A DNA stretch of 64,000 nucleotides from Thermodesulfobacteriota bacterium. Its GTDB lineage: Bacteria > Desulfobacterota_D > UBA1144 > Nemesobacterales > CSP1-2. Under the pieces are notes generated by a model. That model did not search any database. It was not told the DNA's origin and saw nothing but the letters and a program-made list of their open reading frames with translations. Shown in pieces: positions 40,436-63,120 of this stretch. The stretch covers positions 62,001 to 126,000 of the forward strand of contig DATMAT010000020.1 of the NCBI GenBank assembly GCA_035559815.1, written 5' to 3'. Numbering within the stretch: the first letter of the stretch is position 1; each line of letters starts with the position of its first letter. The translations under genes and the position numbers were made by a program.

Positions 40436-41800
40436 TCAGAAAAGGGCTTCGATGGCCTTTTCGATGGAACCCACACCGACCAAGGAAATGTTGTTATCCT
40501 GCGGTTTAAATCTCTCAAAATTTATTGTGGGAAGAATACACTTCTTGAATCCCAATTTTTCGGCTTCCTTTATTCTCAACTCAGCTTGAGAAACACAGCG
40601 GATTTCCCCGGAAAGACCGACTTCCCCAAAAACAACCACGTCTGATTGAACCGGCTTGTTGAGAAAGCTCGACGTAACCGCCATGCTGATACCCAGGTCT
40701 ATTGCCGGCTCTTCAACCCTGACCCCACCGGCAACGTTCATGAAGATATCCTGGCTGAGAATATGAAGCCCTGCTCTTTTTTCGAGCACCGCCACCAGAA
40801 GGGAGACTCGGTTATAGTCGAGCCCGATGGTGGTCCTCCTGGGCACGCCGAAGTTACACGGGGAGACCAGGGCCTGAATCTCTACCAGTATCGGCCTTGT
40901 ACCCTCGAGGCTGGGAGTAACGACGGAGCCGGAGGCCCCCAAGGGCCGTTCGGAGAGAAAGATCTCCGAGGGGTTTTTTACCTCCTGGAGTCCGCTCTCA
41001 TTCATCTCAAAGACGCCTATTTCGTTCGTTGAGCCGAACCTGTTCTTCACCGCTCTTAGAATTCTGTAAGGATGCTCCCGTCCGCCCTCGAAGTAAAGAA
41101 CGGTATCTACCAGGTGTTCAAGAACCTTGGGACCGGCTATGGTTCCTTCCTTGGTGACATGGCCTACCAGAAAAACTGCGGTGCCGTTTGCTTTTGAGTA
41201 TTGCATGAGCTTGGCCGTGCACTCCCTAATCTGTCCAACGCTTCCCGGAGCAGAGGGGAAATCCCCCGTATAGGTCGTCTGTATGGAATCGACCACCACT
41301 ACGACTGGAGAAAGTTTTTCTAATTGTTCTATGATATTCTCGACCAAGGTTTCCGAGAATACAAAGAGCTTGTCTGAGCCTATTCCAATTCGCTCTGCTC
41401 TCATTTTTACCTGGTCTGGAGATTCTTCTCCGGTAACGTAGAGGACATTCATGTTGGATATGCCTATGTTATTCAACATCTGAAGGGCCAGGGTCGATTT
41501 TCCAATTCCGGGGTCGCCACCCACCAAGACGACTGAGCCAGGAACGAATCCGCCGCCCAGAACCCTATCCAGCTCGCCAATCTTTGTTTTGATTCTTTCC
41601 TCTTTTCCGCTTTCTATACGAGTGATGGAGAGTGGCGAAGAACCCCGAAGTTCTTTCATCCGGGGGGTTCTTTGCTTTTCTATCTTTTCTTCCACGTAAG
41701 AATTCCATTCGTCACAGGCGGGACACTTTCCCAGCCATCTGGGAGACGAGTTCCCGCAGTTCTGACAGACGAATTGATATTGTGACTTGGATTTTTTCAT
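40436..41800 (-). CDS. radA: DNA repair protein RadA
   Basis: This 454-residue RadA/Sms has an N-terminal C4 zinc finger (Cys12, 15, 26, 29) and a RecA-like ATPase core with Walker A GGDPGIGKST near residue 94. It also has the RadA-specific KNRFG motif and a C-terminal Lon-protease-like domain (GVRVEEPAIDLGISMAV, GEVGLSGEIR). It is a branch-migration helicase acting with RecA in recombination and repair. Length and all motifs are complete. Confidence 0.96.
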   Translation of the reverse strand: MKKSKSQYQFVCQNCGNSSPRWLGKCPACDEWNSYVEEKIEKQRTPRMKELRGSSPLSITRIESGKEERIKTKIGELDRVLGGGFVPGSVVLVGGDPGIGKSTLALQMLNNIGISNMNVLYVTGEESPDQVKMRAERIGIGSDKLFVFSETLVENIIEQLEKLSPVVVVVDSIQTTYTGDFPSAPGSVGQIRECTAKLMQYSKANGTAVFLVGHVTKEGTIAGPKVLEHLVDTVLYFEGGREHPYRILRAVKNRFGSTNEIGVFEMNESGLQEVKNPSEIFLSERPLGASGSVVTPSLEGTRPILVEIQALVSPCNFGVPRRTTIGLDYNRVSLLVAVLEKRAGLHILSQDIFMNVAGGVRVEEPAIDLGISMAVTSSFLNKPVQSDVVVFGEVGLSGEIRCVSQAELRIKEAEKLGFKKCILPTINFERFKPQDNNISLVGVGSIEKAIEALF

Positions 41801-42035
41801 TGGGAATTAGATCATCTTAGGAAAAAAGTTATACATTCAAATCCTCTTCTTTTTTACCTAAATTTCCTCTGCCATCGCAGGTAAATCCATTAGTTAAGTT
41901 GTTTAGAGCTATATTATCCGCTCATACTGAGCCAGTCGGAGTATGAACCTGTAATCATGTGAATAGGAAACCAGGCGCGTCCTTGGACCGGGCTCAGGAC
42001 GATCGGTTTGGTTTAAGTTGATAACACAGTAATTA

Positions 42036-44480
42036 CTACTCCTCTCCCTCCTCATTGTTCTCCTTCCCCTTTCCGGCTCTTTGCCTGGCAAGCTTTTTGA
42101 ATTCCTCCGTAAACTCCTTGAGGCGCTTGTTGACAAGATAGTTCACCGTACCCTTCTTGAATTCTCCGTTAGGGCCCTTTTCCCCGGCCTCCATACCGGT
42201 CAGGGCCTCTATGGCCTGGTCCACAGTTTCTACCGGGTAAATATGAAACCGGCCTCCTCTTATTGCCTCGACAACCTCGCCCTTTAACATCAGGTCATTT
42301 ACGTTTTGGTGGGGGATTATTACTCCCTGCTCCCCGGTCAGGCCCTTGGCCTTGCAAGCATAGTAAAACCCCTCCACTTTTTCGTTTACGCCTCCAATAG
42401 GTTGTATCTGTCCCTTCTGGTTTACCGACCCGGTAACTGCGAAATTTTGTTTGATCGGGACGCTGGATAGGCTTGATAGAATTGCTACAAGCTCGGCGAC
42501 GGATGCGCTGTCGCCGTCGATCATCTCGTAACTCTGCTCGAAACCGAGGCTCGCCGAAAGGCTTAAGGGTTTATTCTGGGCGTACTTAGCTCCCAAATAT
42601 CCACTCAGTATGAGAACACCTTTGTCGTGGATATTGCCGCTCAACCGGGCCTTCCTTTCGATATTGACAACCCCTTCACTCCCTAGGAACGTCTCGCAGG
42701 TGATTCGGGAAGGCTTCCCAAACACGTAATCTCCTAAGTTGTAAACGGCGAGTCCGTTAATTTGCCCCACGGTCTCACCCTTGGTGTCTACCAGTATCAT
42801 TCCCTTTTCGATCATCTCTCTTATCTTTTCCTCGACCATGTTTGATCGATAGATTTTTTCCTCGATTGCTTTCTCTATGTGCTCCCGAGTCACGTATCCA
42901 GCGTTTCCATCCATGCCTGCCCAGTAATCGGCTTCCCTGGCGATCTTGGCTATGGCCCCAAATTGAACCGATAACTTGTTTTGATTGCCGGCCATCCTGG
43001 AGCAGTGCTCTATTAAGGCTTCGACGCCGCTCCGGTCAAAGTGCCTTATACCCTCGTTATCGCAGAAGGACTTGATATAGCAGGCGTACTTGTAAAGGAG
43101 TTCATCCGACCTCTCCACCACCGTATCGAAATCGGCTTTTACCTTGAATAGCTTTCGGAAGTCCTCGTCGTAGGCGTAAAGTATCTGGTAAATATAGGGG
43201 TTGCCGGTGACTATGACCTTGAGGTTTAATTTTATGGGTTCCGGTCTGATGCCGACCGTAGTCATGAGGCCATATTGTTGGTAGACGTCTTCTATTCTCA
43301 GCTCCTCGTTCTCCAATACTTTTTTGAGAGAGTCCCAGACAAATGGATATTTAAGAATATCTATTGCCTCGACTACCAGATAACCGCCGTTCGCCTTGGC
43401 CAGCGAACCCGGTTGAATCATGGTAAAATCGGTTACCAGTACACCAAACCTTACCTCTCTTTCTATGGAGCCGAACAGGTTGGTATAGGTGGGATGGGTC
43501 TCGAAAATTACGGGAGCCCCCTCAGAGCCGGAATTGTCTATGAAAACGTTGACTTGATACTCGGTAAAAGTGGGTTTGGGCTGAGGAGGGGTTGGAAAGG
43601 GAAGGGTGGGCCCTCCTTCGGCGACCTTATCCGGCAAAAAGTTATCGATGTGCTCGAGTATGTGCCTCTGCATCATGTCCAGGTAATCGATTACCGAGGG
43701 ATAGTTGTTGTATTTTTCCCTGACGCTCTCTAGTAGGTCCCTCACCGCAAAAAGGGCTACCTTTTTCTCCAGTTCCTTCAGTTTTTCCATGGCATCCTTC
43801 TCTAGCTTTCTGATTCTCTTGAAAACCTCGGCTACCTCTTCATCTATCTTCTCTTTTCTCTTTCTTATCTCCTCCTTGTGAAATTCGTCAAGGTTGGCGT
43901 AATTTTCTTGGGTAATTGGTTTCCCGTGGAAAAGGGGAATGGTTATTATCCCGGTCGGCGTGTACTGTATCTGCATCTCTTCTTCGGTGGCTTTTTTTTG
44001 AAGCTCTTCAAACAACATACCCTTTTGCTTCTGTGACTCGTTCATAATCCGCTGCTTCTCTTCTTCATACTCCTTGCTCTCGAAGGCCTTCGGTATATCC
44101 ACCTTGAGCATCTCTAGAAGGCCTTCCATATCCTTCTTGAATACCCTTCCCATACCGGTGGGAAAGCTGACGGCCTTGGGTTCGTTAGGATTATTAAAGT
44201 TATAGACGAAACACCAATCGGGAGGGGCGGGCTTGGTCTTGGCGACCTTGGATAATATAGTTCTTATAGCGCTAGTCTTGCCGACGCCTAGGGGACCGGC
44301 AAGATAAAGATTATATCCTCTATGCTCCATCCCCAGGCCGAAATGTATAGCCTTGACCGCTCTTTCCTGGCCGATAAATTCCTCGCAGACCCCGAGTTCC
44401 TCTGTCGTCTTGAATCCGTAAGCACTTAGGTCGCAGCGCCGGTAAACCTCATTAGCGGAAAGCTCTCTGACTTTTTTCAT
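42036..44480 (-). CDS. Lon-like ATP-dependent protease (AAA_32 type)
   Basis: This protein of about 814 residues is the LonC/YcbZ-like class rather than canonical Lon. An N-terminal AAA domain has Walker A AGPLGVGKT, a long charged coiled-coil insertion (about 150-260) follows, then a second ATPase part with GGYLVVEAIDIL. The C-terminal Lon protease domain has catalytic serine in DGDSASVAE and lysine in GGVNEKVEGF. The protease should degrade misfolded or regulatory proteins. I prefer the ATG at 44480 because GAGGGG lies seven bases ahead. A TTG and an ATG a few codons upstream are alternatives. The C-terminus is rich in glutamate and lysine. Confidence 0.9.
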   Translation of the reverse strand: MKKVRELSANEVYRRCDLSAYGFKTTEELGVCEEFIGQERAVKAIHFGLGMEHRGYNLYLAGPLGVGKTSAIRTILSKVAKTKPAPPDWCFVYNFNNPNEPKAVSFPTGMGRVFKKDMEGLLEMLKVDIPKAFESKEYEEEKQRIMNESQKQKGMLFEELQKKATEEEMQIQYTPTGIITIPLFHGKPITQENYANLDEFHKEEIRKRKEKIDEEVAEVFKRIRKLEKDAMEKLKELEKKVALFAVRDLLESVREKYNNYPSVIDYLDMMQRHILEHIDNFLPDKVAEGGPTLPFPTPPQPKPTFTEYQVNVFIDNSGSEGAPVIFETHPTYTNLFGSIEREVRFGVLVTDFTMIQPGSLAKANGGYLVVEAIDILKYPFVWDSLKKVLENEELRIEDVYQQYGLMTTVGIRPEPIKLNLKVIVTGNPYIYQILYAYDEDFRKLFKVKADFDTVVERSDELLYKYACYIKSFCDNEGIRHFDRSGVEALIEHCSRMAGNQNKLSVQFGAIAKIAREADYWAGMDGNAGYVTREHIEKAIEEKIYRSNMVEEKIREMIEKGMILVDTKGETVGQINGLAVYNLGDYVFGKPSRITCETFLGSEGVVNIERKARLSGNIHDKGVLILSGYLGAKYAQNKPLSLSASLGFEQSYEMIDGDSASVAELVAILSSLSSVPIKQNFAVTGSVNQKGQIQPIGGVNEKVEGFYYACKAKGLTGEQGVIIPHQNVNDLMLKGEVVEAIRGGRFHIYPVETVDQAIEALTGMEAGEKGPNGEFKKGTVNYLVNKRLKEFTEEFKKLARQRAGKGKENNEEGEE

Positions 44481-44683
44481 GCGCATACCCCTCAAAATTT
44501 ATATCTTCATTTTTGCACACGACTCTGGCTTTTGCAAGCTGAACCGCTGGTCGAATTTCCTCGAGGAGAAATTAAATCCGAGATTCCTTGTGGTTAGTAT
44601 GTTTTGGTATATATTGACACGGCAAATTTTTTACACAATAGTAGTAACTAACACAAGACCCACACCAGGAGGAGGAAAACACA

Positions 44684-45490
44684 ATGAAGGTAATAAAGCT
44701 TAGTAGTAGAGCTGTTTCAGTTGTATTGCTGGCTACTTTTATCGGTCTGGGAGGACTTAAAGCGGCCTATTCTGAGGACCTGCCTGCACCTCAGCTTGTG
44801 ACCGATGCTTGGATGCTAATTATTGGGTTCGAGGCGGATCCGGAAGCGCTCAAGGCCATTCTTCCGCCAGGGCTCGAACTCAATCCCAGCAACATGGTGG
44901 TTATGAACATGTACACGGTTCCGGATGCGTCCCAAACCTCCGGGTTTGGGGCATACACGCTCACCTATCTTACGGTGCAGTTGAAGGACCAAGACTCATA
45001 TATCATGGGTTCTGAGACAGGAGAGCCGGGCAGGTATTTTGCCTTCTATTTCAACAGCTCCCAGTTGATGCGGGATTTCACTACTAAAGTGGGAATCCCT
45101 GCCCAGGAGGGGATGACCAAGCAAACAAAGGAAGATGGGAAGCTGACATCGGTGCTGGAGGTGGGAGGAAAACCGTTTATAGTAGCGACGGCGGATGTGG
45201 GCGAAGACTTCCAGCCCGCAGCAGGAGGGCATCTCAATTACTTCGGGTTGAAGAAGTCAGAAATGGACGGCAAAGAGATGACTCGAATCATGAAATACCC
45301 GATTCCTTTTGTTGTGAGAACCGTGAAGACCGAGAATACCAAGGTTGAATTTACGAAGAATATACCCGCGGACCATCCACTCAACAAAATTAAACCCAAG
45401 AAGATTGTATGGGGATCTTACATGAAAGGCAGTTTTGTGTATCCCCAGGCAGTAGTTCTCAAGGAATGGGAAACTACTGCCAAGAAGTAA
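44684..45490 (+). CDS. Exported acetoacetate-decarboxylase-like protein
   Basis: This 268-residue protein begins with a clear signal peptide (residues 1-30, cleavage near AAYSED). The remainder follows the acetoacetate decarboxylase fold: ALKAILPPGLEL near the start, TYLTVQLKDQ, and RYFAFYFNSS. The Schiff-base lysine context (EPK-type motif) of true acetoacetate decarboxylases is not visible, so activity is doubtful. Export is also unusual for that enzyme. It may bind or modify a small ketone or lipid in the periplasm. It has a strong ribosome-binding site (AGGAGGAGG), and a TTGACA at 44614 may be its -35 element. Confidence 0.7.
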   Translation: MKVIKLSSRAVSVVLLATFIGLGGLKAAYSEDLPAPQLVTDAWMLIIGFEADPEALKAILPPGLELNPSNMVVMNMYTVPDASQTSGFGAYTLTYLTVQLKDQDSYIMGSETGEPGRYFAFYFNSSQLMRDFTTKVGIPAQEGMTKQTKEDGKLTSVLEVGGKPFIVATADVGEDFQPAAGGHLNYFGLKKSEMDGKEMTRIMKYPIPFVVRTVKTENTKVEFTKNIPADHPLNKIKPKKIVWGSYMKGSFVYPQAVVLKEWETTAKK

Positions 45491-45515
45491 AAATCGAGTC
45501 AATTCAAATTGGTTT

Positions 45516-45549
45516 GTAGGGGCAATTAGTTTCGCTGAATTGCCCCTAC
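45516..45549. terminator. Perfect 12-bp GTAGGGGC palindrome
   Basis: GTAGGGGCAATT (45516-45527) pairs perfectly with AATTGCCCCTAC (45538-45549) around a 10-base loop, followed by TTTTG. It fills the gap between two co-directional genes and could be a terminator. It is the best-preserved member of the window's palindrome family. Confidence 0.65.
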
Positions 45550-45562
45550 TTTTGCGTAAGCT

Positions 45563-46186
45563 ATGCTAAAGATCAGCGACGACATCATCTTAACCTGGCT
45601 TGGACATGCCAGCTTTAAGCTCGAAGCAGGCGATAAGACGATCTATATAGACCCGTGGAAGGTCAAAAAGGGCCAAGCCGACCTAATTTTTATAACCCAC
45701 TCCCATTTCGACCACCTATCTCCAGACGATGTGAGAAGGATTCAGAAAAAGGATACCGTTATCATTGCCACCAAGGATTCCGCATCGAAGTTAAAGGGGA
45801 ATATAAGAACAGTAAAGCCGGGTGATAATGTGGAGATTGACGACATACAAATTCAAGCGGTACCAGCTTACAATATAGGGAAAAATTATCATCCAAAGAC
45901 CAATGACTGGGTTGGCTTTGTAGTCACTTTAGGCGGGAGGAAAATCTATCATGCCGGCGACACTGATGCCATCCCGGAGATGAAAAAGATTAGTGTTGAT
46001 ATAGCCCTTCTTCCCATTGGAGGGACGTATACCATGACCGCGGAGGAAGCCGCTCAAATTGCCAATGAATTTAGCCCTAGATTAGTAGTTCCCATGCACT
46101 GGGGCACAATTGTCGGTTCGGAGGCGGATGCGGAAAGGTTCAAAGGGCTTTTTAAAGGGGAAACGAGCATCCTTAAACCAGGATGA
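45563..46186 (+). CDS. Metal-dependent hydrolase, UPF0173 (metallo-beta-lactamase fold)
   Basis: This 207-residue protein has the metallo-beta-lactamase-like signature HSHFDHLS (HxHxDH) near residue 52. It begins LTWLGHASFKLE, has YHAGDTD in the middle and PMHWGT near the end, all typical of the UPF0173/YtkL-like group. It should bind two metal ions and hydrolyse an ester or phosphodiester. The substrate is unknown. The start codon ATG follows GCTATG without a strong ribosome-binding site. Confidence 0.9.
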   Translation: MLKISDDIILTWLGHASFKLEAGDKTIYIDPWKVKKGQADLIFITHSHFDHLSPDDVRRIQKKDTVIIATKDSASKLKGNIRTVKPGDNVEIDDIQIQAVPAYNIGKNYHPKTNDWVGFVVTLGGRKIYHAGDTDAIPEMKKISVDIALLPIGGTYTMTAEEAAQIANEFSPRLVVPMHWGTIVGSEADAERFKGLFKGETSILKPG

Positions 46187-46278
46187 AGGATTTATAGGCC
46201 GACCACGAGAACACCGAGCATATGGGGTTTGTTACGATTCGTTTTAAGTTTGCTTTCTCTGGAAATTCTGTACCCTCT

Positions 46279-46309
46279 CTTGCAAATAAATTTCTCATTT
46301 ATTTGCAAG
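46279..46309. repeat. Perfect 13-bp inverted repeat just before the tRNA remnant
   Basis: CTTGCAAATAAAT and ATTTATTTGCAAG flank a 5-base loop (TTCTC). The stem is perfect and AT-rich with no T-tract after it. It lies 33 bases before the tRNA-Pro fragment, at the boundary between core genome and island. It may act as a terminator or as a recombination site. Confidence 0.5.
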
Positions 46310-46341
46310 ATGATAAATCTATTGTAGATTTAAATAGCTCT

Positions 46342-46381
46342 CGGGGTGTAGCTCAGTTGGCTAGAGCGTTGCGTTCGGGAC
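46342..46381 (+). tRNA. 5' half of tRNA-Pro(CGG), truncated at the anticodon loop
   Basis: CGGGGTG (acceptor strand), TA, GCTC-loop-GAGC (D arm), G, TTGCG (anticodon stem) and the loop TTCGGGA with anticodon CGG are all present, followed by one matching C. From 46382 on, the sequence no longer supplies the anticodon-stem complement, T arm or acceptor 3' strand. An integrase gene starts 156 bases further on. The break in the anticodon loop is a known tyrosine-integrase crossover position, so this is probably one edge of the island. Confidence 0.75.
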
Positions 46382-46537
46382 TTTTGAAGAGCTACGCACG
46401 ATGCAAGGTAATTTGTCAAAAGTTTCAGGTAGTTACACACTCCTTATTAACTCCCCAAACATCACTTTCTAACCTATTTCTAACCACTTCCCAGAAATTC
46501 GCTGTCATCTCTAGCTTTCATGGCTGGAGGTTCAGCG

Positions 46538-47596
46538 ATGGCTTCTCTCCAATTTAAGTGCAATACCTACTACGGGGTATTTAGTGTTAATGGAAGGAAG
46601 AAATGGGTTAAAATCGGTTCTGTAACTAAACAGGAAGCCCAGAAGATACTGAGACAGCTTGAATTAGAGTTCATAAGGGATAAGTTCAATCTCACTCCAC
46701 CAAAAACTATTACTTTATATGAGTTCATTGATAAATACATGGATTATTGCAAAGCAAACAAATCTGAGCTAACTGTGTCCAGAGAAGAGTGGACTATGAC
46801 TCTCTTTAAGAAATTTTTTAGGAATATAGAAATCAGCCAAATAAGCACGGAATCGGTAGAAGCTTATAAGCTTACGAGGGTTCGCAAAAAATTGAAACCT
46901 AAGACAATAAATAGGGAATTAGAGATAGTTAGGTTTATGCTAAATAAAGCCCATGAATGGGGTTACATCCAAACTCCACCGAAGATACGGTTGTTAAAAG
47001 TACAAAAACGTCCTCCAAAACTTCTTACTATTGAAGACATAAATAAGTTATTAGAACATGCCAATCCCTGGTTGAAACCAATGATTATCGTGATACTTAA
47101 TTCAGGGGTTAGGGTAGGGGAGCTATTAAGTCTAAAATTTTCAGATATTGATTTTAACAACCGAACTCTAACAGTAATAGCGAGCAAAACAGGTAACTTC
47201 AGGGTACTTCCCATTAATGAAGAATTGTATCAAATCTTTCTTTATTTGAAGGACAACTATATTGACCCCAATACGCTAGAAGTATCTGTCAGGAAACCAG
47301 AGCAACTAGTTTATATCTTTTGTAAACCGGATGGAAGTAAGCTAAAAAGCATTAGAACCAGTTTTAATAAATGTTGTCGGGGAGTGGGAGTCAAAGCTAC
47401 TCCTTATCATCTAAGACATCAATTTGCTAGCTATTTGATAATGAATGGGGCTGACCTTGTCTCCGTAAAGGAATTGATGGGTCATACCGAAATATCCACT
47501 ACCATGATTTATGCCCATCTTTTACCCTCCTATAAATCTGGAATGGTGGAAAAATTGCCTTGGATTAAAAATCCAAACAGTTTTAAACGGGAATGA
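46538..47596 (+). CDS. Tyrosine recombinase/integrase
   Basis: This protein of about 352 residues is a phage-type integrase. An N-terminal SAM-like core-binding domain (TLYEFIDKYMDYCKANKSE) is followed by the catalytic domain, with SGVRVGELLSLKF (first arginine), HLRHQFASYLI (HxxR), LMGHTEISTTMIYAH (histidine) and the tyrosine nucleophile in that segment. It should integrate and excise the island at the adjoining tRNA-Pro gene. I choose the ATG at 46538, which has GGAGG just ahead. The ATG at 46520 overlaps that site. Confidence 0.93.
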   Translation: MASLQFKCNTYYGVFSVNGRKKWVKIGSVTKQEAQKILRQLELEFIRDKFNLTPPKTITLYEFIDKYMDYCKANKSELTVSREEWTMTLFKKFFRNIEISQISTESVEAYKLTRVRKKLKPKTINRELEIVRFMLNKAHEWGYIQTPPKIRLLKVQKRPPKLLTIEDINKLLEHANPWLKPMIIVILNSGVRVGELLSLKFSDIDFNNRTLTVIASKTGNFRVLPINEELYQIFLYLKDNYIDPNTLEVSVRKPEQLVYIFCKPDGSKLKSIRTSFNKCCRGVGVKATPYHLRHQFASYLIMNGADLVSVKELMGHTEISTTMIYAHLLPSYKSGMVEKLPWIKNPNSFKRE

Positions 47597-47647
47597 ACGG
47601 GTAAGATGCTTTCTAATTTAACATGGGAAAGAATCTTTTGTCCTTAT

Positions 47648-48019
47648 CTAATCTTCGTTATGTTCTGAGAAAACCTTTTTTAACTGATCAGCCCAAAATA
47701 GTGTATCGTCGGAAATATCGTATCCAAGTTCATCTGCGAGTTCAAAAAATCCGTTACCTGGCATATTATCGTCTCTCCTCACAACTATAGCTGATAAAAG
47801 AGGTCTTCCAGCGTTATGTTCTGTTGTTGAAATCTCTCCTAGCATCCAGTAGAGAGGGTGATAAGGAGGTTCAATGGTGACATGGGTTAACTTCTCTGCT
47901 AATTCGCTATAGGTTATTAGCTGTCTTTTCCTTGCTCTATCCCTTAGAATATTTCTTATTTCTAGAACGGTCTGGTTCCATGTTTCTCTATCTATACCAA
48001 AAGGCTCATGATTACTCAT
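47648..48019 (-). CDS. Hypothetical protein, small cytoplasmic
   Basis: This protein of about 123 residues is not assigned to a named family. Visible features are ITYSELAEKL, then HPLYWMLGEIS, then RPLLSAIVVRRDDNMPGNGFFELADELGY. The second half suggests a small alpha/beta domain. The ATG at 48019 has AGGGTGAG seven bases ahead; an upstream in-frame GTG is less likely. It is convergent with the integrase and may be island cargo. Confidence 0.6.
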   Translation of the reverse strand: MSNHEPFGIDRETWNQTVLEIRNILRDRARKRQLITYSELAEKLTHVTIEPPYHPLYWMLGEISTTEHNAGRPLLSAIVVRRDDNMPGNGFFELADELGYDISDDTLFWADQLKKVFSEHNED

Positions 48020-48028
48020 TTGTCTCAC

Positions 48029-48332
48029 CCTATTATATTTAGCATTTCATATAGAAAATTTTAAAACAAAATTTAATGTGTGATAAGGGGGGGAATATGA
48101 CGTAGCTATCTACTCAGAGTAGAGAGTAATAATTAGTCTAAAATAAGAGGTCAGTTCTTACATTTTTCAATACGGTCGCCTATATCATCTCGAAGTTTCA
48201 GTACCCAAAAAATTCGGTGTAAGTTCCTTGTATGCAAATAACACCTGAAGAATTACCATGAATCAATGATGGGTTTTCCCCTAAGCCTGAATTACAACTT
48301 TATGGTTACTTCCATAATGCCCATTCCTTGAA
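48029..48332. other. Intergenic region, no gene seen
   Basis: There is no credible gene on either strand. A short perfect inverted repeat, CTACTC-A-GAGTAG, lies at 48110-48122 and could be an operator for the hypothetical gene to the left. Otherwise the region is AT-rich without recognisable structure. Confidence 0.4.
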
Positions 48333-49604
48333 TCAGCTTTTAACTACCAATATTTCATCCCAGTTTGTAGTGTATCTGGGGGAGAGCTTTGCCCTCCTCA
48401 TTCGCCATTCTTGCTCTATCCCTGATGAGCCATATCTGATTGTATTAGAACCCCATTTGTCATTAAGCCTATCAACTGCTCTCATTAAGGACTTGTCCCT
48501 CTCTACATCTCTGGGATGCTCATATAAATTAAGCTGTATCTGGTCTTCTGGGACTATATCTGTCACCATGACCCCTGCTCGACTATACTTATATCCTTCC
48601 CTAAATATCCTATCCAAGCATTGTAGGGCATATTTAATCAATAAAGGTGTGTAAGCTGATGGTTCGGGTAGGGAACATCCTGCCAGATTCCCATAATAAG
48701 GTTCATCAGTTTTAAATCTATTGGTTTCAATAAACACACTTATATGAAATGCTACAGACCTCTGTTCCCTTAACTTCTCAGTAGCTCTTGTTGTATGAGT
48801 ACTAATAGACTCTCTTAACTCATTTAAGCTAGTTACCGGTCTGCCAAAACCCCTAGACCGGATAATCTGTTTCTTAGGCTCATTTAAATCATCCAGTTCA
48901 ATACATGATATACCTCGGAGTTCTAATTGAGTCCTGTGTCCCACAATGGTCATATACTTTTTAACCCAATTCTCAGGGGCATTCTTTAAGTCTAATGCTG
49001 TGAATACCCCATTCCTATTAAGCAATTTGGCATATTGTCTTCCTACACCCCAGATATCTTCTACATTGACACTGGCCAGGAAATCATCTGTTCTGGGGTG
49101 ATTGGTAATATCAAAAACGCCAGAGCACATAGGGTTTTTCTTAGCCAGTTTGTTAGCGATTTTGGAAAGGGTTTTTGTGGGGCCTATACCAATACTTATA
49201 GGTATACCAGTCCATCTATAGACTGTTGATTTTATTTCCTTTGCATATTCTGTAAGATTTAGATTAGAGAAACCAGAGAGGTTTAAAAAGGCTTCATCAA
49301 TGCTATAGAATTGTATATCTGGTGTGAACTGAGAAAGTATACTCATTACCCTCTGGGACATGTCCCCATAGAGGGAGTAATTACTGGATAAAACAGCTAC
49401 ATTATTATTTTTGAAAGTTTGTTCCCATAAAAATGCTGGTGCTCCCATCGGTATTCCAAGAGTCTTCGCTTCCTCACTTCTAGCAACCACACAACCATCG
49501 TTGTTTGATAATACAACTACTGGGCGTTTCCTCAGCTTCGGGTTGAAAACCCTCTCAACACTGCAATAGAAATTATTACAATCTACTAAAGCAAATATCA
49601 TCAT
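48333..49604 (-). CDS. umuC: UmuC-type DNA polymerase V catalytic subunit
   Basis: This 423-residue Y-family polymerase begins FALVDCNNFYCSVERVFNP, which includes the first catalytic aspartate, and has YSIDEAFLNLSG with the catalytic DE pair. A helix-hairpin-helix region (VEDIWGVGRQYAKLLNRNG) and a little-finger domain follow. It copies damaged templates with low fidelity when activated by UmuD' and RecA. It lies six bases after umuD in one operon. Confidence 0.95.
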   Translation of the reverse strand: MMIFALVDCNNFYCSVERVFNPKLRKRPVVVLSNNDGCVVARSEEAKTLGIPMGAPAFLWEQTFKNNNVAVLSSNYSLYGDMSQRVMSILSQFTPDIQFYSIDEAFLNLSGFSNLNLTEYAKEIKSTVYRWTGIPISIGIGPTKTLSKIANKLAKKNPMCSGVFDITNHPRTDDFLASVNVEDIWGVGRQYAKLLNRNGVFTALDLKNAPENWVKKYMTIVGHRTQLELRGISCIELDDLNEPKKQIIRSRGFGRPVTSLNELRESISTHTTRATEKLREQRSVAFHISVFIETNRFKTDEPYYGNLAGCSLPEPSAYTPLLIKYALQCLDRIFREGYKYSRAGVMVTDIVPEDQIQLNLYEHPRDVERDKSLMRAVDRLNDKWGSNTIRYGSSGIEQEWRMRRAKLSPRYTTNWDEILVVKS

Positions 49605-49610
49605 GGCATT

Positions 49611-50039
49611 TCACAAGGCAGGATGGAAAATATAAGTAACCTTGCCCCAAATCTCGAAATCTGCTTCACTGGATATTTCTATTGGTAAGTACTTTGGATT
49701 AGCTGATACCAGATACCACCTGTCAGCTTTCTTGACCAATCTCTTTACGGTAAAATCCCCGTTTAAAACAGCAAGGATGATATCATTAGTCTTGGCTTCA
49801 ATTGCTCTATCTACTAATAGGAAGTCCCCATCATCAATTCTGGCCTCAACCATAGAATTACCCATTACCCGAACAAGGTAAGTTGCCTCTGGGTGTTTGA
49901 CCAGCTTCTTATTCAGGTCAATACGTTCCTCGATATAATCATCAGCAGGTGAGGGGAACCCTGCTGGAGGACGTACTAAGAATAAGGGGAGATTTAGCTT
50001 GACCTCAGATTTTAGCCTATACATTTCTGTTACAGTCAT
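49611..50039 (-). CDS. umuD: UmuD-type S24 peptidase, polymerase V subunit
   Basis: This 142-residue protein has the UmuD layout. The self-cleavage bond is Ala26-Gly27 within PPAGFPSPADDY, the nucleophile is Ser62 in MGNSM, and the general base is Lys99 in TVKRL. RecA-stimulated self-cleavage yields UmuD', which activates UmuC. It is the middle gene of an SRAP-umuD-umuC operon, 13 bases after the SRAP gene. Confidence 0.94.
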   Translation of the reverse strand: MTVTEMYRLKSEVKLNLPLFLVRPPAGFPSPADDYIEERIDLNKKLVKHPEATYLVRVMGNSMVEARIDDGDFLLVDRAIEAKTNDIILAVLNGDFTVKRLVKKADRWYLVSANPKYLPIEISSEADFEIWGKVTYIFHPAL

Positions 50040-50052
50040 ATTGTTACCCTCC

Positions 50053-50721
50053 TCATACTGGTTTTATACACTCCTCTGAATCATTCTTGGGTGAGTTAAC
50101 CAATGTAGAAACCTGATAGGCTTCCATTAAGTCAGATGGAAAAGGGGCCAGATATTCAGTCAGTGTATCGGTATCCTTAAACTTGGGGTCTAGCCACACA
50201 TCTTCATCCTTCTTGTGCAAGATAACTGGCATTCTATTGTGGATAGGTTCCATTAACTCATTTGCCCTTGTGGTGATTATGGTGAAAGAAAGGATTTCTT
50301 CTCCCTCAGGACTTTTCCACTTTTCCCATAGACCAGCAAAAACGAATGGTTCCCTTGTTTTAAGTACAAACCGATATGGAATTCTATTCTTTTTGTCACC
50401 AGTCCACTCGTAAAAACCATCAGCCAGAACCAGACAGCGCCTATCCCTAAATGGTCTCTTAAAGGTGTTTTTTTCAGCAAGTGTTTCTGCTCTGGCATTA
50501 GTCATTTTATACCCAATCTTTATATCCTTGGCCCAGACGGGTATCAGTCCCCACCTCATCATTACCAGTTCCCTCTGGCCTTGATTTGATACTATGATAG
50601 GTGAATTCTGGGACGGTGCTATGTTGTATCTGGGTTGTAACAGAATATCATTAGGAAATATGAAACCATACCTGGATTGAAGGTCATCCTTATCTGTGCT
50701 GAGCGTAAATCGGTTACACAA
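50053..50721 (-). CDS. SRAP-domain protein (YedK/HMCES family)
   Basis: This 222-residue SOS-response-associated protein starts MCNRFTL, and Cys2 becomes the N-terminal residue that crosslinks to abasic sites in single-stranded DNA. Other conserved pieces are NARAETL, DGFYEW with the catalytic glutamate, and PIHNRMPVIL with the active-site histidine. It shields abasic sites from error-prone cleavage. The start is TTG, set by the need for cysteine at position 2, and is supported by GAGGAG ten bases ahead. No LexA box that I could recognise lies upstream. Confidence 0.93.
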   Translation of the reverse strand: MCNRFTLSTDKDDLQSRYGFIFPNDILLQPRYNIAPSQNSPIIVSNQGQRELVMMRWGLIPVWAKDIKIGYKMTNARAETLAEKNTFKRPFRDRRCLVLADGFYEWTGDKKNRIPYRFVLKTREPFVFAGLWEKWKSPEGEEILSFTIITTRANELMEPIHNRMPVILHKKDEDVWLDPKFKDTDTLTEYLAPFPSDLMEAYQVSTLVNSPKNDSEECIKPV

Positions 50722-50912
50722 GGTAGAGTCTCCTCATAATATGGGCAATAGCTCTAAACTCAATGGTTATTAGAAAAGTACTTTAATACCCCACGTATTC
50801 AAAGTCTAGCTAAATTTGGGGAGTTTAACAATATCATGTATTAGGTAGATCATTGAGGAATATAAGAGAATTGGCATCCCCAAAGTTGCTTCTTCTGGCC
50901 TGTATATGAGCC

Positions 50913-50966
50913 ATTATTAGTATTTTCTACACTAATCTCTGTCCGATAAATTAGGGGGCTAATACA
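50913..50966. mobile_element. Remnant of an IS right end related to the IS3-type element
   Basis: About 54 bases ending TTAGGGGGCTAATACA match the right end of the IS at 63135-63188 with only a handful of differences, including the shared ATTATTAGTATTTT start and the CTGTCC core. No transposase sequence is attached. It is a decayed solo end of the same or a close IS, in the same orientation. Confidence 0.7.
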
Positions 50967-50979
50967 CTACAGGATCGAG

Positions 50980-51204
50980 ATGTGTCATGTGGTTGAAAAA
51001 GTAAATAAAAACTGGTTTTATTGTCTTATGGGAAATATAGAAAGGCAATTAGATTCAATCGAGAAGAGACTCAATAATATTCTAGTAATACTTGATAAAA
51101 CAGCTACGGGTTCCGCACTTATAAACAAATTAATGATAGGAACCCTACTAACCCTCATTATTGGGTGGATTGCGATTATAACAACAATCTTTCTCGTGGA
51201 TTAG
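50980..51204 (+). CDS. Small predicted membrane protein
   Basis: This 74-residue frame has a charged coiled-coil-like middle (IERQLDSIEKRLNNILVILD) and one hydrophobic segment near the C-terminus (LMIGTLLTLIIGWIAIITTIF). That layout suits a single-pass membrane protein. The ribosome-binding site is weak, and no family is recognised. It lies just right of the IS remnant and faces the TOPRIM gene. Confidence 0.4.
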   Translation: MCHVVEKVNKNWFYCLMGNIERQLDSIEKRLNNILVILDKTATGSALINKLMIGTLLTLIIGWIAIITTIFLVD

Positions 51205-51273
51205 GTTAAAACTTGCATATCCTATCACATCAAGCCTTAATGATCTGACGAACATAATTGGTGGTTGAAACCA

Positions 51274-52932
51274 CTACCCCAATAAGCCAGTCCCTATGTT
51301 CATCTTTTGATGGTCTTTTCCTGTTGGTTGATGATTTAGGAGTATTAAATCTCCACTCTTTAGAACAAAATTCTCTATGGGTCTTTTGTGTTTCGAATTT
51401 GGCTTAGATTGTCTTTTTTTGATAACCAAATCTACTAAATCTACAACCAATTTTGGCTTATTTATTTTGATTTGATATTTTACTTCTACCGCTCTTATTA
51501 GACCTTTTTTTCTAGTCGCATCGTAACGAATGTTCTTAATGTCTTTGGCTTTAATAAATGTTTTAGTCTGCATATTTATAGCTCTGGCTATCTCTGAATC
51601 AGTAAAATTGGCTTCTTCAAATGAAGAATTGTGTTTTTTTACTCCCCATATTTTGATTCTGTCTCTACTTGGTATCACTTTTATTAATCCTTTGAAATCA
51701 AATTTTCTCTTTGCCTTTAGTAACCTTCTAGCTTGTTTTGCATTTTCTCCTTCATTATCAACAATAAAATAAATTAAAACTTGTTTTTCATGCATATACT
51801 CAATAAAACATTGCCAATTTGCAAGAGTAAATTCTCCATCTCCCTTAATTGACCTAAACTCGATTCCCAATAGGTTAGAATTATATTGATAATATTCAAA
51901 CAGGTTTCTTATGGCTTTCCATTCTTCACCTTCCGTAAATATAATAGCTCTTGGTTTTGGATTTATACCCCATTCGTTGCATAGAAATTCCAACATTTGG
52001 TACGGATGGTTCTCTAGTATATCCTTTCCATATTTTCTTTCTTTCCATTTAGGTAATTTGGATATTTCATCTCTTGACGAGGTATCAAAGACATCATGAA
52101 TATCCGAAATGCCCTTCATTGATAGGTTTTCTCCTATATCTTTCAAATACAGATAAAGTATTTGTGCCATTTCATAGAAATCCTGTGCAAGTAAAGCATT
52201 TCCTCTTAGTTGTTGTCTTTTATTATAGTTGATAAATGATAGGAGTAAGTACCATCTCTCTAGAGGATCAATATGTCTTAAAATGAGAGAAAATTCCGTT
52301 ATCCATTTTTTGATTTCATCTGACTTAAAATTTAAGTCTTCTAATACCTGGAGAGGATTGAATTTCTTCTCTACAATAAACTGTTCTCTCCAATTTCTGA
52401 TTGAAGATAACAAAATAGTTTCTTTTTTTACAAAGTAAGTACCGTGAATTGCCACGAATCCATGATAGTCTCGGCTTTCTCCCCAACGATTATCGCTTCT
52501 TACCTCCGGCAAATAGAAATCCTGGATTTTACAGAGAAGTACTAAGAGTCTATTAAATGTTTCAATTTGCCTTTTCAAAGTACCGGTATTTGAATCTATT
52601 AGTTGTTCCCAGTTTGTTATAAGATAGCTTCTTTGCTTTCCCTTCATTCTATATGCACTGAGTTTTACTGAGTCTGCTCTACATCTCTCAAGTATATATA
52701 GACTATAAACTTGGAATGAGGAATAGAAATCAATATTATTTTCGCTGTAGGTAGGTAGTAACAATCTTTTTTTCTTATAATAACTAAGTAACCAAAGAAA
52801 ACTCTCTTCAGTGATTCCTATATGTTCAAATCTTTCTTTGCAATATTTAAAGAAATCTCCTGCACTAAGTAAGGGATTCTGAGAACTTTCAGGCAATTCA
52901 TTTAATAATTGTAATTTTTCTATTTTTGTCAT
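51274..52932 (-). CDS. Uncharacterised protein with TOPRIM-like C-terminal domain
   Basis: This 552-residue protein is not assigned to a named family. The first 330 residues are mostly helical and unlike known domains. From about residue 340, AIIFTEGEEWKAI supplies a TOPRIM-like glutamate. LIYFIVDNEGENAKQARRLL then matches the DNDxxG-type metal-binding motif of OLD nucleases, followed by a FEEANFTDSEIARAIN segment resembling their downstream region. No ATPase domain is fused, unlike OLD proteins. It may be a nuclease that depends on its neighbour. It follows the TPR-membrane gene by 54 bases on the same strand, so the two are probably co-transcribed. The DNA is very AT-rich. Confidence 0.65.
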   Translation of the reverse strand: MTKIEKLQLLNELPESSQNPLLSAGDFFKYCKERFEHIGITEESFLWLLSYYKKKRLLLPTYSENNIDFYSSFQVYSLYILERCRADSVKLSAYRMKGKQRSYLITNWEQLIDSNTGTLKRQIETFNRLLVLLCKIQDFYLPEVRSDNRWGESRDYHGFVAIHGTYFVKKETILLSSIRNWREQFIVEKKFNPLQVLEDLNFKSDEIKKWITEFSLILRHIDPLERWYLLLSFINYNKRQQLRGNALLAQDFYEMAQILYLYLKDIGENLSMKGISDIHDVFDTSSRDEISKLPKWKERKYGKDILENHPYQMLEFLCNEWGINPKPRAIIFTEGEEWKAIRNLFEYYQYNSNLLGIEFRSIKGDGEFTLANWQCFIEYMHEKQVLIYFIVDNEGENAKQARRLLKAKRKFDFKGLIKVIPSRDRIKIWGVKKHNSSFEEANFTDSEIARAINMQTKTFIKAKDIKNIRYDATRKKGLIRAVEVKYQIKINKPKLVVDLVDLVIKKRQSKPNSKHKRPIENFVLKSGDLILLNHQPTGKDHQKMNIGTGLLG

Positions 52933-52986
52933 CTTTATATTATCATTGAAGTTAAAGTCTTATCTGATCCTGTTTTAATATCTCGA

Positions 52987-55311
52987 TTATATATTTTGTA
53001 CCCAAGGCAGATTAGGCTTCTTGTCTGGAATGACGTCCTTTATTCTTTCTAATTCCACTAACTTGTTTTCAATGGTTGGATGAGATAGAACAAATTCGGA
53101 GGGTGGAGATTGTAACTCTACTTCGAAATCATGTGACTTAATCCTTTCTATGCTTGGAAAGAAAAGGATAAGTATTAAAAATAAGATAAAGAATATATAG
53201 ACTGTCCAATTTAATTCTGTGTTTAACTCTATATAAATCCATTTAGCTATAAGTGGATGAAGTAAAAACAATAAAATGACAACAACCAATAGAACCATAA
53301 ACATAAGTCTTTTGTAGCCCTGATATAAAGGAGAGTACAACCACCAATGCCACCAAGGTGGTTTGATTTGGTAGTTCCAGATGTTACTGAGTAATTCTAT
53401 TGCTGATTGTTTTACCGAAGATTCTATTTTAATGCATTCCTCTAGCTTGTGTTTAGCAGTAAAATAATCTTTACTCTTATTATAAAAATAACCCAAGAAA
53501 TAAAGAACATGTGCTCTTAGGTCTTCCTTCATAAGTTTATTAGATAGCTTTTCAGCTTTTTCGAGTGTTCTAATAGCTGAACCAATGCTTTCTTGGTACT
53601 TATTATCTTCCTTTCCTAAATTAAACTCGGCCTTTAAATAATTGGCGTAAGCATTCCATATAAGATAAAAGGGATTACCCTCATCTAGTAAAATAGCCTT
53701 TTTAAGGGATTGGATGGCTAAATCATAATCACATTCCTCAATTTTTATTCTGCCCTGGATGTACCATGCTGGGGCATGGGATTGATTTAATTTTAGGGCT
53801 TCTTGAACTTTTTTAGTAGCATCATCTACATTTCCGATGTTGAAGAAGAGTTCAGCTAGGTTACTGTGAGCCCAAATAAAGTTTGGATTTAGTTGTATAG
53901 ACTTCTGATAGGCTTTTTGTGCTTCTTTGTATCTTTCTAACCTATGATGAATAACCCCACAATTATTCCAGGCATCAGCATAACTTGGATTTATCGCTAA
54001 GGCTCTTTCAAAAGCTTCTAGTGCGTCTTGATATCTTTCGAGCCTTTCTAGTGCAACGCCTTTGTAATTCCAAGAGTTTGCATAGTTAGGATCAATCTCA
54101 ATAGCTCTTTCGTGTGCATTTAATGAATTCTTATATTTGCCAAGATTGACGAAAACTAAGCCAAGACTATTCCAGGCTCCTGCAAATTTCGGATCCAAAT
54201 GTAGGGCTTTTTCAATGGCATTTATGGCCTCATCATAATTCTCTAGCTTGGCAAGCACAATCCCTTTGCTATTCCAGGCATCGGAGTAATTCGGATTTAT
54301 CTTTATGGCTTTATCAAAAGACTCTATGGCCTCCTCGTATCTTTCCAGCTTCTCAAGTGTAATCCCCTTGTTATTCCAGGCTTCGTAATGATCAGAGACT
54401 AACTCAATAGCTTTTTCATATGCCTCTTTTGCATCTTCGTATCTTTCAAGTCTAAAAAGAACATTACCTTTGTTATACCAGGCATTAGCATTCTCAGGGT
54501 CTATGTCTATAGTTTTGTTATATGATTTAAGTTCCTCATCATATTTTTCTAACACTGAAAGCGTAAAACCCTTATTGTTCCAAGCACTCACGAAGTCTGG
54601 TTTTAAATCTATGGCTTTGTCAAAAGCCTCATTAGCCTCTGGGTATTTTTTAAGATTTATAAGAGCCTGACCTTTGTTATAATAAACATCGGCTTCGTTT
54701 GGGTTTATTCGAATAGCTTCATCAAAAGCTTCTAAAGCCTCTTCGAATTTTTTAAGCTTATAAAGAGCAAATGCTTTGTTATTCCATGCTTTATGATTGT
54801 TAGGGTTTATCTCTAAGACTTTGTTGTATACTTCTAAAGCTTCTTCATATTTTTCAAGGTTAACGAGAATACCACCTTTGTTGTACAAAGCATTAGATTG
54901 CTTAGGATCAATCTCTAGTGCCTTTTTATATGATTTTAGTGCCTCCTCGTATTTCTCAAGTTTTTCAAAAGCAACGCCCTTATTAACCCAAGCATCAGCA
55001 AAATTTGGATTTATCTCTATTACTTTGTTAAAAGCCTCTATACTTTCCTCATATTTCTCAAGAAAAATAAGTGAACAGCCCTTGTTATACCAAGAGTCTA
55101 GAGATTGTGGATTAATCTTAATAGCTTTGTCAAAAGCCTCTATAGCATCTTGATATTGTCCGAGGTGTGCAAGGACAAGACCTTTATTATACAAGGCTTC
55201 AATGAAACCCGGATTTAATTCCGTAGCCTTTCCGAAGGCTTCCAGAGCTTTATCGTAATGTTTTTCATCAAAGAACTTTATGCCCTTATCAAGCCATTCT
55301 TCCGAGGTCAT
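52987..55311 (-). CDS. TPR protein with two C-terminal membrane segments
   Basis: This 774-residue protein has at least 16 canonical 34-residue tetratricopeptide repeats (about residues 1-545, consensus AWNNKGxxLxxLxxYEEAIEAFDKAIxINPN). A less regular helical region follows, then two hydrophobic segments near the C-terminus (MFMVLLVVVILLFLLHPLIA and VYIFFILFLILILFF). It should be an inner-membrane protein presenting a long TPR superhelix, probably to the cytoplasm. It lies between hsdR (92 bases upstream) and the TOPRIM-like gene (54 bases downstream), all on one strand. The role is unknown; a sensor or scaffold for the TOPRIM protein is an inference. Confidence 0.85.
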   Translation of the reverse strand: MTSEEWLDKGIKFFDEKHYDKALEAFGKATELNPGFIEALYNKGLVLAHLGQYQDAIEAFDKAIKINPQSLDSWYNKGCSLIFLEKYEESIEAFNKVIEINPNFADAWVNKGVAFEKLEKYEEALKSYKKALEIDPKQSNALYNKGGILVNLEKYEEALEVYNKVLEINPNNHKAWNNKAFALYKLKKFEEALEAFDEAIRINPNEADVYYNKGQALINLKKYPEANEAFDKAIDLKPDFVSAWNNKGFTLSVLEKYDEELKSYNKTIDIDPENANAWYNKGNVLFRLERYEDAKEAYEKAIELVSDHYEAWNNKGITLEKLERYEEAIESFDKAIKINPNYSDAWNSKGIVLAKLENYDEAINAIEKALHLDPKFAGAWNSLGLVFVNLGKYKNSLNAHERAIEIDPNYANSWNYKGVALERLERYQDALEAFERALAINPSYADAWNNCGVIHHRLERYKEAQKAYQKSIQLNPNFIWAHSNLAELFFNIGNVDDATKKVQEALKLNQSHAPAWYIQGRIKIEECDYDLAIQSLKKAILLDEGNPFYLIWNAYANYLKAEFNLGKEDNKYQESIGSAIRTLEKAEKLSNKLMKEDLRAHVLYFLGYFYNKSKDYFTAKHKLEECIKIESSVKQSAIELLSNIWNYQIKPPWWHWWLYSPLYQGYKRLMFMVLLVVVILLFLLHPLIAKWIYIELNTELNWTVYIFFILFLILILFFPSIERIKSHDFEVELQSPPSEFVLSHPTIENKLVELERIKDVIPDKKPNLPWVQNI

Positions 55312-55403
55312 ACTGATTCCTATCTTGCAAATTTCTGGCTTACTAACAATAAAATTAGAGTCTAGAATTACGGATTAAATTATCCGAATACCAGGAACCT
55401 CTC

Positions 55404-58367: not shown

Positions 58368-58443
58368 ATTACCTCATTTTTGATTCCCTTTCCTATCCTC
58401 CAGACCTTGAAACTAAATGTTTGTTACAATTTTATGGCTTTCA

Positions 58444-58830
58444 TTAGAAATAATCAATAATCTCAACTTTCGCATAAGGATAACGTTCTAGCAAAGGTCT
58501 TAAGACCGAGTCATCACATGTACATAAAGCTACTGACAAAATACTCCTGGGTTTAAAATATTTTTGTAATAAAAAATATGAGAAAAGGGTCTGCCCCATC
58601 AGATACATCCCAAGCCTTTTTGTTTTTGCCTGGACACAAATTATGTCCTTTCCTTTTATAACTACCTCCCTCTGCTTTGCTATTCTATGTTCTCCATCTG
58701 GAATAATGATTCCATCAATGTATCTTGGACTATTGGTATTTGTTTTTTTTACTACAAGAAATTCTTCTACCAGTGTTCCACCGACTTTATTCCAGTACGC
58801 CCTAATTAACGGAGTCTCTTTTTTGCTCAT
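58444..58830 (-). CDS. Small PD-(D/E)XK-like protein within the type I RM operon
   Basis: This 128-residue protein has YIDGIIIPD followed by KDIICVQAKTKRLGMYLMGQ. An aspartate, then (E/Q)xK on a strand and a downstream helix is the order of a PD-(D/E)XK nuclease core, with glutamine in place of the usual glutamate. The family is not one I can name. It overlaps the 3' end of hsdS by 29 bases and precedes hsdR by 76, so it is an embedded part of the operon rather than a stray insertion. It could be an accessory nuclease or a regulator of restriction. Confidence 0.6.
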   Translation of the reverse strand: MSKKETPLIRAYWNKVGGTLVEEFLVVKKTNTNSPRYIDGIIIPDGEHRIAKQREVVIKGKDIICVQAKTKRLGMYLMGQTLFSYFLLQKYFKPRSILSVALCTCDDSVLRPLLERYPYAKVEIIDYF

Positions 58831-60073
58831 CGCTACTTTTTCTTACATCAATTTTCCCCGTCACAACCTGGGAGATAAGGGAGGTTCGGTATTCGTTTAG
58901 GAATTCAATGGATTTATTATGCTTTTCAATCAAACTGTCAATTTCTTGGGTCTTTTGTTGAAGGTATTCCGCAATTTCGTCTTGTTCAGATGAAGGTGGT
59001 GATAAGAACTTTATATCTTTTAATTTTTCTCTTGTTAGATGTCCAATGCTCACTCTATTTACTATTGCTTCAAAGAATCCTGTTTTCCCATATGCTTGAA
59101 AGTGATATAAATAGTAATATGGATTATATTCAGGGTGCATTGTGACTTTATGAACCGAATTTTGAATATAACACTCTGGGAGTTCATTCCTCCAGAGTGC
59201 AGTTCTTCCAACCTCACCTCCCTCACTCACTAATAAATCATTTTTTTTCAATCTGTATTGATTTAATTCATTCTGGGAAAACCACATTTCTTTAATATCA
59301 TCTGTATCAACTTTTTCCCAGGTTATGTTCTGTGCCCGTAAATAGGGTTTTCTAAGGTACTCACCCCTATCATCATTCGTAAGCATTTTCCCTAACACTA
59401 TTTCACAAAGAAATTTAAGAGGTTGAACTTCCCAATGTTCCGGTATCTTCCCTAACCACTCAATCCCAGAGTCTTTCATCTTCACATTGGGATTCAGTCC
59501 TTTAGTCACTGCATGGTTGATAATTGCTGTTCGATATTCCTTGAGGAGTTCAATGAGCTTCTGTTTCTTTTCAACGAGAATGTCTATCTGATTTGTTTTG
59601 TGGTCGAGGTAACACGCTATAGTATTTTGTTCGAGGGGTGGTGGCAATGGCACTATTCTTTCATATACCTCTTCTCTGTTCAAACCTGGTACAGCGGAAT
59701 CTTTTGAGAAAGAATCAAGTTTTAAGGAAAGTAAAAGATAATACAACCAACGAATATCATTACTGGTTGCAGTAGTATCAATATAAAATGTGGTATCAAT
59801 AGGAAAGCATTTACCCTCTGAATAGTTCACTTTTCCGAAGGAACCCTTTCTTCCGATAACTATGCAAGGGTAGGTTGTTATTGCCTTGTCATGATAACCA
59901 GTAATTCCATTTGAACCATAGACTGGAACACTCCCATCTGTTCTATTCTCGTTTGAAAGCGATTCACCATAAAGGAGTAGAGTTACTCTTTTTAACCGAG
60001 TAATTTCCCAGTGCTCAGGTATTTCTCTAATTAAATCGATACCAGTATCTTTATATTTTGAGTACTGATTCAT
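58802..60073 (-). CDS. hsdS: Type I restriction enzyme, specificity subunit
   Basis: This 423-residue HsdS has two target-recognition domains, each opened by the same motif (EIPEHWEITRLKRV near 20, KIPEHWEVQPLKFL near 215). Each is followed by a conserved helix (IACYLDHKTNQIDILVEKK and IAEYLQQKTQEIDSLIEKH) that sets the spacing of the two half-sites. It defines the recognised DNA sequence. It overlaps hsdM by four bases (ATGA). Confidence 0.95.
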   Translation of the reverse strand: MNQYSKYKDTGIDLIREIPEHWEITRLKRVTLLLYGESLSNENRTDGSVPVYGSNGITGYHDKAITTYPCIVIGRKGSFGKVNYSEGKCFPIDTTFYIDTTATSNDIRWLYYLLLSLKLDSFSKDSAVPGLNREEVYERIVPLPPPLEQNTIACYLDHKTNQIDILVEKKQKLIELLKEYRTAIINHAVTKGLNPNVKMKDSGIEWLGKIPEHWEVQPLKFLCEIVLGKMLTNDDRGEYLRKPYLRAQNITWEKVDTDDIKEMWFSQNELNQYRLKKNDLLVSEGGEVGRTALWRNELPECYIQNSVHKVTMHPEYNPYYYLYHFQAYGKTGFFEAIVNRVSIGHLTREKLKDIKFLSPPSSEQDEIAEYLQQKTQEIDSLIEKHNKSIEFLNEYRTSLISQVVTGKIDVRKSSDEQKRDSVN

Positions 60074-61794: not shown

Positions 61795-61924
61795 ATATAA
61801 TATAACTACATTAAGAGAACAATATTAATAAATACAATCAGCAAATTTATATCTCCCCATCCCCTTTAAAATCTTCAAAAATCAATCACTCTATGGTTTA
61901 ACCCCCTAAAAACTGGACAATAGA

Positions 61925-62815: not shown

Positions 62816-63120
62816 TATCCTTCTCTCTTTTTTCTCTGGAGTGTTTTTTTAAGCAGCGATTCCTTGATGCTTAACTCCAGCTCCTTATCCGCTAATAGCT
62901 GCTTTAACCTCTGATTCTCTCTCATCAACCTCTCAAACTCTGGATCCCTGCTCTTCCTACTGCTTAACCCCTCTATCCCCATCGCATCATATCTCCTCTT
63001 CCACTGATAATAAGCCGATGCGTATATCCCGTACCTCCTGCAGGTTGCTACTACTCCCTCGCTTTCCGCTTCCTGAATAAAAGCCAATTTCTCTTCTGCT
63101 GTCCATCTCTTTCTCTTCAT
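62815..63120 (-). CDS. IS3-type transposase, OrfA (helix-turn-helix)
   Basis: This 101-residue protein has an N-terminal helix-turn-helix (KRKRWTAEEKLAFIQEAESEG, then YGIYASAYYQWKRRYD) and a leucine-zipper-like helix (RENQRLKQLLADKELELSIKE). It binds the IS ends and regulates OrfAB. Its last codons contain the frameshift site. Confidence 0.92.
   Translation of the reverse strand: MKRKRWTAEEKLAFIQEAESEGVVATCRRYGIYASAYYQWKRRYDAMGIEGLSSRKSRDPEFERLMRENQRLKQLLADKELELSIKESLLKKTLQRKKREG
62827..62833 (-). promoter_or_regulatory. Probable -1 frameshift site (A AAA AAG)
   Basis: Read on the minus strand, A AAA AAG lies in the orfA zero frame, four codons before the stop. A -1 slip there gives KKERRIVAREYIGEG, joining orfA directly to orfB in frame. 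This is the standard IS3 arrangement for producing the OrfAB transposase. Confidence 0.75.

Follow-up and report, generated by a model that had tools for sequence, protein, structure and literature searches.

The window analysed here, 64,000 nt in length, corresponds to positions 62001-126000 of contig C20 in a 3.97 Mb assembly of 79 contigs. At positions 46342-46381 it carries nucleotides 1-40 of the genome's intact tRNA-Pro(CGG), identical at 40/40 positions, with a tyrosine integrase gene on its downstream side (Table 1). The tRNA sequence breaks off 1 nt past its 7-nt anticodon loop, TTCGGGA (46374-46380). ARAGORN called no complete tRNA gene anywhere in the window, and the runner-up ungapped 40-nt match to the 5' half within the window was just 22/40, so that a chance resemblance can be dismissed. 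The 37-nt 3' half found nothing better than 24/37 in the whole window, and the DNA following the break (46382-46422) has no tRNA likeness. These results confirm what the original prediction had read from the sequence, namely a tRNA-Pro(CGG) cut at its anticodon loop beside an integrase, with unrelated DNA and no adjoining 3' half after the cut. A decayed 3' half was considered for 46382-46422 and rejected, as shuffled sequence averaged 15.8 nt and the best near-register match came to 15 nt. A 111-aa open reading frame (46222-46557) crosses the fragment; its peptide RGVAQLARALRSG is translated tRNA gene, and the frame is likely spurious.

Table 1. Features at the tRNA-Pro(CGG) locus, in the island and at related loci. 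Positions are those of the window unless a contig or locus is named.
Feature	Position	Strand	Basis
MBL-fold hydrolase gene of the native left flank; six family members have it upstream of tRNA-Pro(CGG)	45563-46186	+	Pfam; synteny
Leader copy at attL: TTGCAA-N16-TAGATT promoter-like sequence and palindrome AAATCTATTGTAGATTT	46303-46341	+	repeated at C20:131505-131543, right island end
Displaced native 5' half of tRNA-Pro(CGG), nt 1-40, at attL	46342-46381	+	40/40 against the intact gene; ARAGORN
Anticodon loop TTCGGGA; predicted 7-bp overlap (crossover) region	46374-46380	+	identity block ends 1 nt later; 51-nt arm-motif spacing as in relatives
In-window part of the 23,202-bp island	46382-64000	.	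att alignment and rebuilt empty site
41 nt occupying the relatives' tRNA 3'-half position	46382-46422	+	no recognisable decayed 3' half
Putative int-side arm: TTTCAGGTAGTTACA motif, with two repeats of TTCTAAC at 46467 and 46478	46423-46486	+	
Tyrosine integrase, 358 aa	46520-47596	+	Pfam Phage_integrase E=9e-29; PHROG integrase E=2e-67
UmuC-like polymerase	48333-49604	-	Pfam
S24 UmuD-like protein	49611-50039	-	Pfam
SRAP protein	50053-50721	-	Pfam
552-aa protein without family match	51274-52932	-	
TPR protein	52987-55311	-	
Type I restriction-modification operon: hsdR, small ORF, hsdS, hsdM	55404-61794	-	
IS3-type transposase pair within the island	61925-63120	-	Pfam
Family B DNA polymerase, in-window part	63482-64000; whole gene C20:125482-127758 (L004:5483-7759)	-	PF03175 E=2e-23
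Clamp-loader-like AAA+ gene after the polymerase	C20:128205-129248 (L004:8206-9249)		
Putative distal arm: seven TTCTAAC repeats, spaced 9-11 nt	window-equivalent 69384-69450, past the window		
tRNA-Met 5' halves with leader, genome G003	L071:4258-5471, L074:913-1977, L099:1501-1566		

A genome search with window positions 46200-46700 as the query returned a second strong place on the same contig, C20:131505-131583, with 94% identity over 79 nt. Here ARAGORN called an intact tRNA-Pro(CGG) with an encoded CCA at C20:131544-131620 on the plus strand (window-equivalent 69544-69620), scoring 66.9 bits. It lies in the same orientation as the fragment, 23.2 kb downstream of it and 5.5 kb past the window end, which is why the 3' half was missed from the window. 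Thus the check that had been proposed, a search for an intact gene and for the missing 3' half at the other island end, found both. Rfam lists 43 tRNA genes in the genome; the further proline tRNAs among those read for anticodon carry TGG and GGG. With the whole tRNA-Pro(CGG) region as the query, the genome contained neither another intact copy nor a 3' fragment.

The two island ends share a direct repeat, matching at 74/79 nt, that consists of a promoter-like leader and the tRNA 5' half and stops at the anticodon loop. Aligned at the cut, both copies read TTGCAA, then TAAATCTATTGTAGATTTAAATAGCT(C/T)T and then 40 nt of tRNA. Past the cut, the left copy continues into island DNA and the right copy into the tRNA 3' half. 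Joining position 46381 to the base after C20:131583 rebuilds an empty site in which ARAGORN reads one ordinary tRNA-Pro(CGG); of the junctions, attR gave a tRNA-Pro(CGG) call, and attL and the reconstructed attP gave none. Bounded in this way, the island spans 23,202 bp from 46382 to C20:131583 (window-equivalent 69583), and its G+C content is 37.1%, compared with 48.9% in the left flank and 44.4% in the right.

The upstream flank identifies the native copy. Six relatives from the same family have ADC-domain and MBL-fold genes in front of their intact tRNA-Pro(CGG), and five of these six, whose contigs extend far enough, also have Lon-like and RadA genes, in the same order as in window positions 40436-46186. 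Because these upstream genes match, we take the left fragment to be the native 5' half, and the island to have delivered the 5' half now present in the intact gene. On the right flank, a gene at C20:138981-140387 is shared with one relative (G004), at a similar distance and orientation from tRNA-Pro and with 64% identity; synteny there is otherwise weak. A thioesterase gene was discarded as further support after its orthologs were located elsewhere in the relatives, and the right flank therefore counts one supporting gene. Among named genomes, the nearest matches to the Lon-like gene of the flank come from MAGs that bear the labels Deltaproteobacteria, Bacterium HR37, Candidatus Dadabacteria CSP1-2 and nzgw197, and Desulfobacterota AH_259, and on account of these matches the host is termed Dadabacteria-like. 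The same tRNA-Pro(CGG) has distant integrases (~30% identical) in relatives (L023, L029, L030, L032, L034), placed on its 3' side and pointing at the gene, which makes the gene a hot spot used from both sides.

Both ends of the island carry TTCTAAC repeats, two at the integrase end and seven at the far end, where ~0.02-0.03 would be expected per stretch. The left pair, TTTCTAACCTATTTCTAACCAC, also adjoins the integrase of a tRNA-Met element (L070, genome G009). The repeats are likely arm-type integrase sites. As for the leader, tRNA-Pro(CGG) is preceded in genomes of another family by leaders with a TTGTARATTTA-like stretch, and in two of them TTGCAA stands in the same place. These similar leaders make ours look like a conserved promoter that the island would have copied. 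A generic sigma-70 scan of both leaders called nothing on the tRNA strand, the promoter-like sequence falling below threshold, so it is on the conserved leader that the promoter reading draws. The tRNA-Pro(CGG) is presumably now transcribed from island-borne DNA.

Taken together, we consider it highly probable that the 23,202-bp island integrated at the anticodon loop of tRNA-Pro(CGG), replacing its leader and 5' half, and that the intact gene now stands at the island's far end. What can be seen in the sequence itself is the fragment, the 79-nt repeat, the intact gene, the rebuilt empty site, the upstream synteny in relatives and the repeats at both ends; the exact crossover point, the integrase-binding arms, promoter activity and present mobility are predictions. 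In a 79-contig draft assembly, a 79-nt repeat could in principle connect the wrong paths, though unique sequence flanks both copies here. A tyrosine integrase would have recombined the island into the tRNA-Pro(CGG) of a Dadabacteria-like bacterium. In the circular form of the island, attP would run from the distal arm with seven TTCTAAC repeats through a promoter-like leader, the tRNA 5' half and the anticodon loop to the int-side arm. With the crossover within the anticodon loop, the left end would retain the native leader and 5' half as a dead fragment, and the island's own leader and 5' half would be joined to the native tRNA 3' half at the right end.

The alternative that survives best, though we regard it as very unlikely, is that two successive insertions or a partial duplication left a rearranged remnant of an older, conventional 3'-type element that did not restore a 5' half. 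Integrases on the 3' side of the same tRNA in relatives, the weak right-flank synteny and the IS3 element within the island would agree with such a history, but it leaves the arm-like repeats at both ends and the exactness of the empty site to be explained, and the genome search revealed no tRNA-Pro(CGG) 3' fragment elsewhere. Still harder to maintain is one of the two explanations originally offered, in which the 5' fragment is island-borne and the true attachment site lies elsewhere or is very short. Island DNA does directly follow the fragment; against this, the fragment sits in its native position behind the genes that precede tRNA-Pro(CGG) in relatives, the G+C content of the left flank is unlike that of the island, and the identity common to both ends extends over 74/79 nt, including 40/40 of the tRNA part. 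The other explanation, that the host lost tRNA-Pro(CGG) at integration and reads CCG with tRNA-Pro(TGG), fits a window without a complete tRNA gene and a genome in which tRNA-Pro(TGG) exists, but has practically no probability left in view of the intact, CCA-encoding 66.9-bit gene on the same contig at the other island end (C20:131544). Of the original prediction, the cut tRNA at an integrase-bearing island thus stands and both explanations fall; restoration of a 5' half was the option that it had not included.

With the preferred reading, integration with restoration of the 5' half, an apparently lost tRNA becomes an exactly bounded mobile island, and the tRNA gene one whose leader and 5' half now derive from mobile DNA. 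It also serves as a warning that 5'-restoring islands mimic gene loss when one end alone is visible.

The cargo comprises the genes listed in Table 1 from the UmuC-like polymerase to the clamp-loader-like AAA+ gene. The 552-aa protein had no match in Pfam, PHROGs, NCBIfam or PADLOC; the TPR protein beside it has hydrophobic stretches near its C-terminus. The family B DNA polymerase has a C-terminal HTH, and a phrog_168 match (E=9e-41) was recorded for the polymerase/AAA+ region. Known matches to the polymerase are weak, that to a Staphylococcus plasmid polymerase being ~22% identical over 41% of the length, and a search of 57 other genomes of the class and of viral contigs returned no relatives. 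The island is possibly a pipolin-like self-replicating element, as it would be if the polymerase were a piPolB.

Relatives of the integrase, 40-56% identical where the match is full-length, occur in genomes of the same class. Within the searches made, relatives above 40% identity were confined to this class of Dadabacteria-like genomes, and no close relative was found in named genomes or viral contigs. Most of the relatives have the conventional layout that restores the 3' half, lying just 3' of an intact tRNA and pointing the same way; their targets are Glu (L069), Met (L070), Arg (L073, L076, L077) and Thr (L079). At L072 and L078 there are tRNA 3' portions only. The shared arm motif, which is degenerate in L072 and L079, lies 50-51 nt past the anticodon loop in the window element, L072, L076, L077 and L079 (51 nt in the window element, L072, L076 and L079) and 61-62 nt past it in L069, L070, L073 and L078. 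As the 41-nt replacement in the window shows no tRNA likeness, the int-side arm has kept its place while the tRNA half is absent there.

A second arrangement of the 5' type was found in genome G003, where on two contigs (C244, C107) a tRNA-Met 5' half with its leader faces a related integrase in the opposite direction, that is, with the target flipped. The C244 copy is intact and the C107 copy has been cut at its anticodon loop, and a third tRNA-Met 5' fragment of this genome, on C122, has no recognisable integrase of this clade. Beyond the cut, the copies on C107 and C122 show arm-like repeats, as in tandem islands or a circular form. In the flipped elements, the loop-to-motif distance, measured by hand, is ~40 nt; distances of ~40, 50-51 and 61-62 nt are steps of one DNA turn. 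G003 is unusually integrase-rich, with 17 integrase-like matches in 710 contigs.

On the integrase tree, which has 11 labelled sequences, some of them partial, and modest branch support around the window sequence, the repaired tRNA half changes at least twice. We therefore offer, as a tentative proposal that we would not yet call probable, that within one integrase clade the half that is repaired may have changed between 3' and 5' on two or more occasions and by two routes, in the window element by a transfer of the identity to the far arm and at tRNA-Met in G003 by a flip of the target. With the loop-to-arm distance keeping to one-turn steps, the conserved unit would be the integrase geometry and not the tRNA half. 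If this is true, which half is captured would decide whether the tRNA promoter is replaced. The related integrases, among which both modes of repair occur, open the question of how an island comes to change the half of its target that it rebuilds.

The tRNA-Pro island is real, in principle ordinary and in kind uncommon; we assign it to a known but uncommon class on the basis of the Islander counts and of archaeal pTN3-like precedents. The conventional islands L069, L070, L073, L076, L077 and L079 share with it a related integrase, the anticodon-loop geometry and similar arm motifs, but rebuild the 3' half, beside the integrase, whereas the window element restores the 5' half at its far end. 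Neither an island-carried 3' half nor a 3' fragment at the far end, as in conventional 3'-restoring islands, was found. Pipolins (PMC9710591) resemble it in having a tyrosine recombinase, att direct repeats overlapping a tRNA gene, restriction-modification genes and a family B DNA polymerase; they encode a primer-independent PolB (piPolB), and the polymerase of the island has a PF03175 match and weak plasmid PolB matches. Islander lists 3919 islands, of which 3760 have a 3' fragment and 159 a 5' fragment (PMC4383910). As in the latter class, an integrase-bearing island separates an intact tRNA gene from a 5' fragment that lies upstream in the same orientation, with the crossover placed at the anticodon region: gene and fragment are on one replicon, the fragment reaches the true gene end, the integrase gene is inside and the 23,202 bp fall within 2-200 kb. 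The island was matched to no specific described member of the class. Use of the tRNA 5' half is seldom met in bacteria (PMC8371274). For pTN3-like (suicidal) archaeal integrases, attB is the tRNA 5' half and a new promoter drives the rebuilt gene (PMC8371274, PMC5495485); likewise, the attB of the tRNA-Pro island would be the tRNA 5' half, and the rebuilt tRNA is parted from its original promoter. In contrast to pTN3, which has an archaeal host and an integrase gene disrupted by integration, the tRNA-Pro island resides in a bacterium, keeps its integrase reading frame intact and supplies a leader that resembles the native one.
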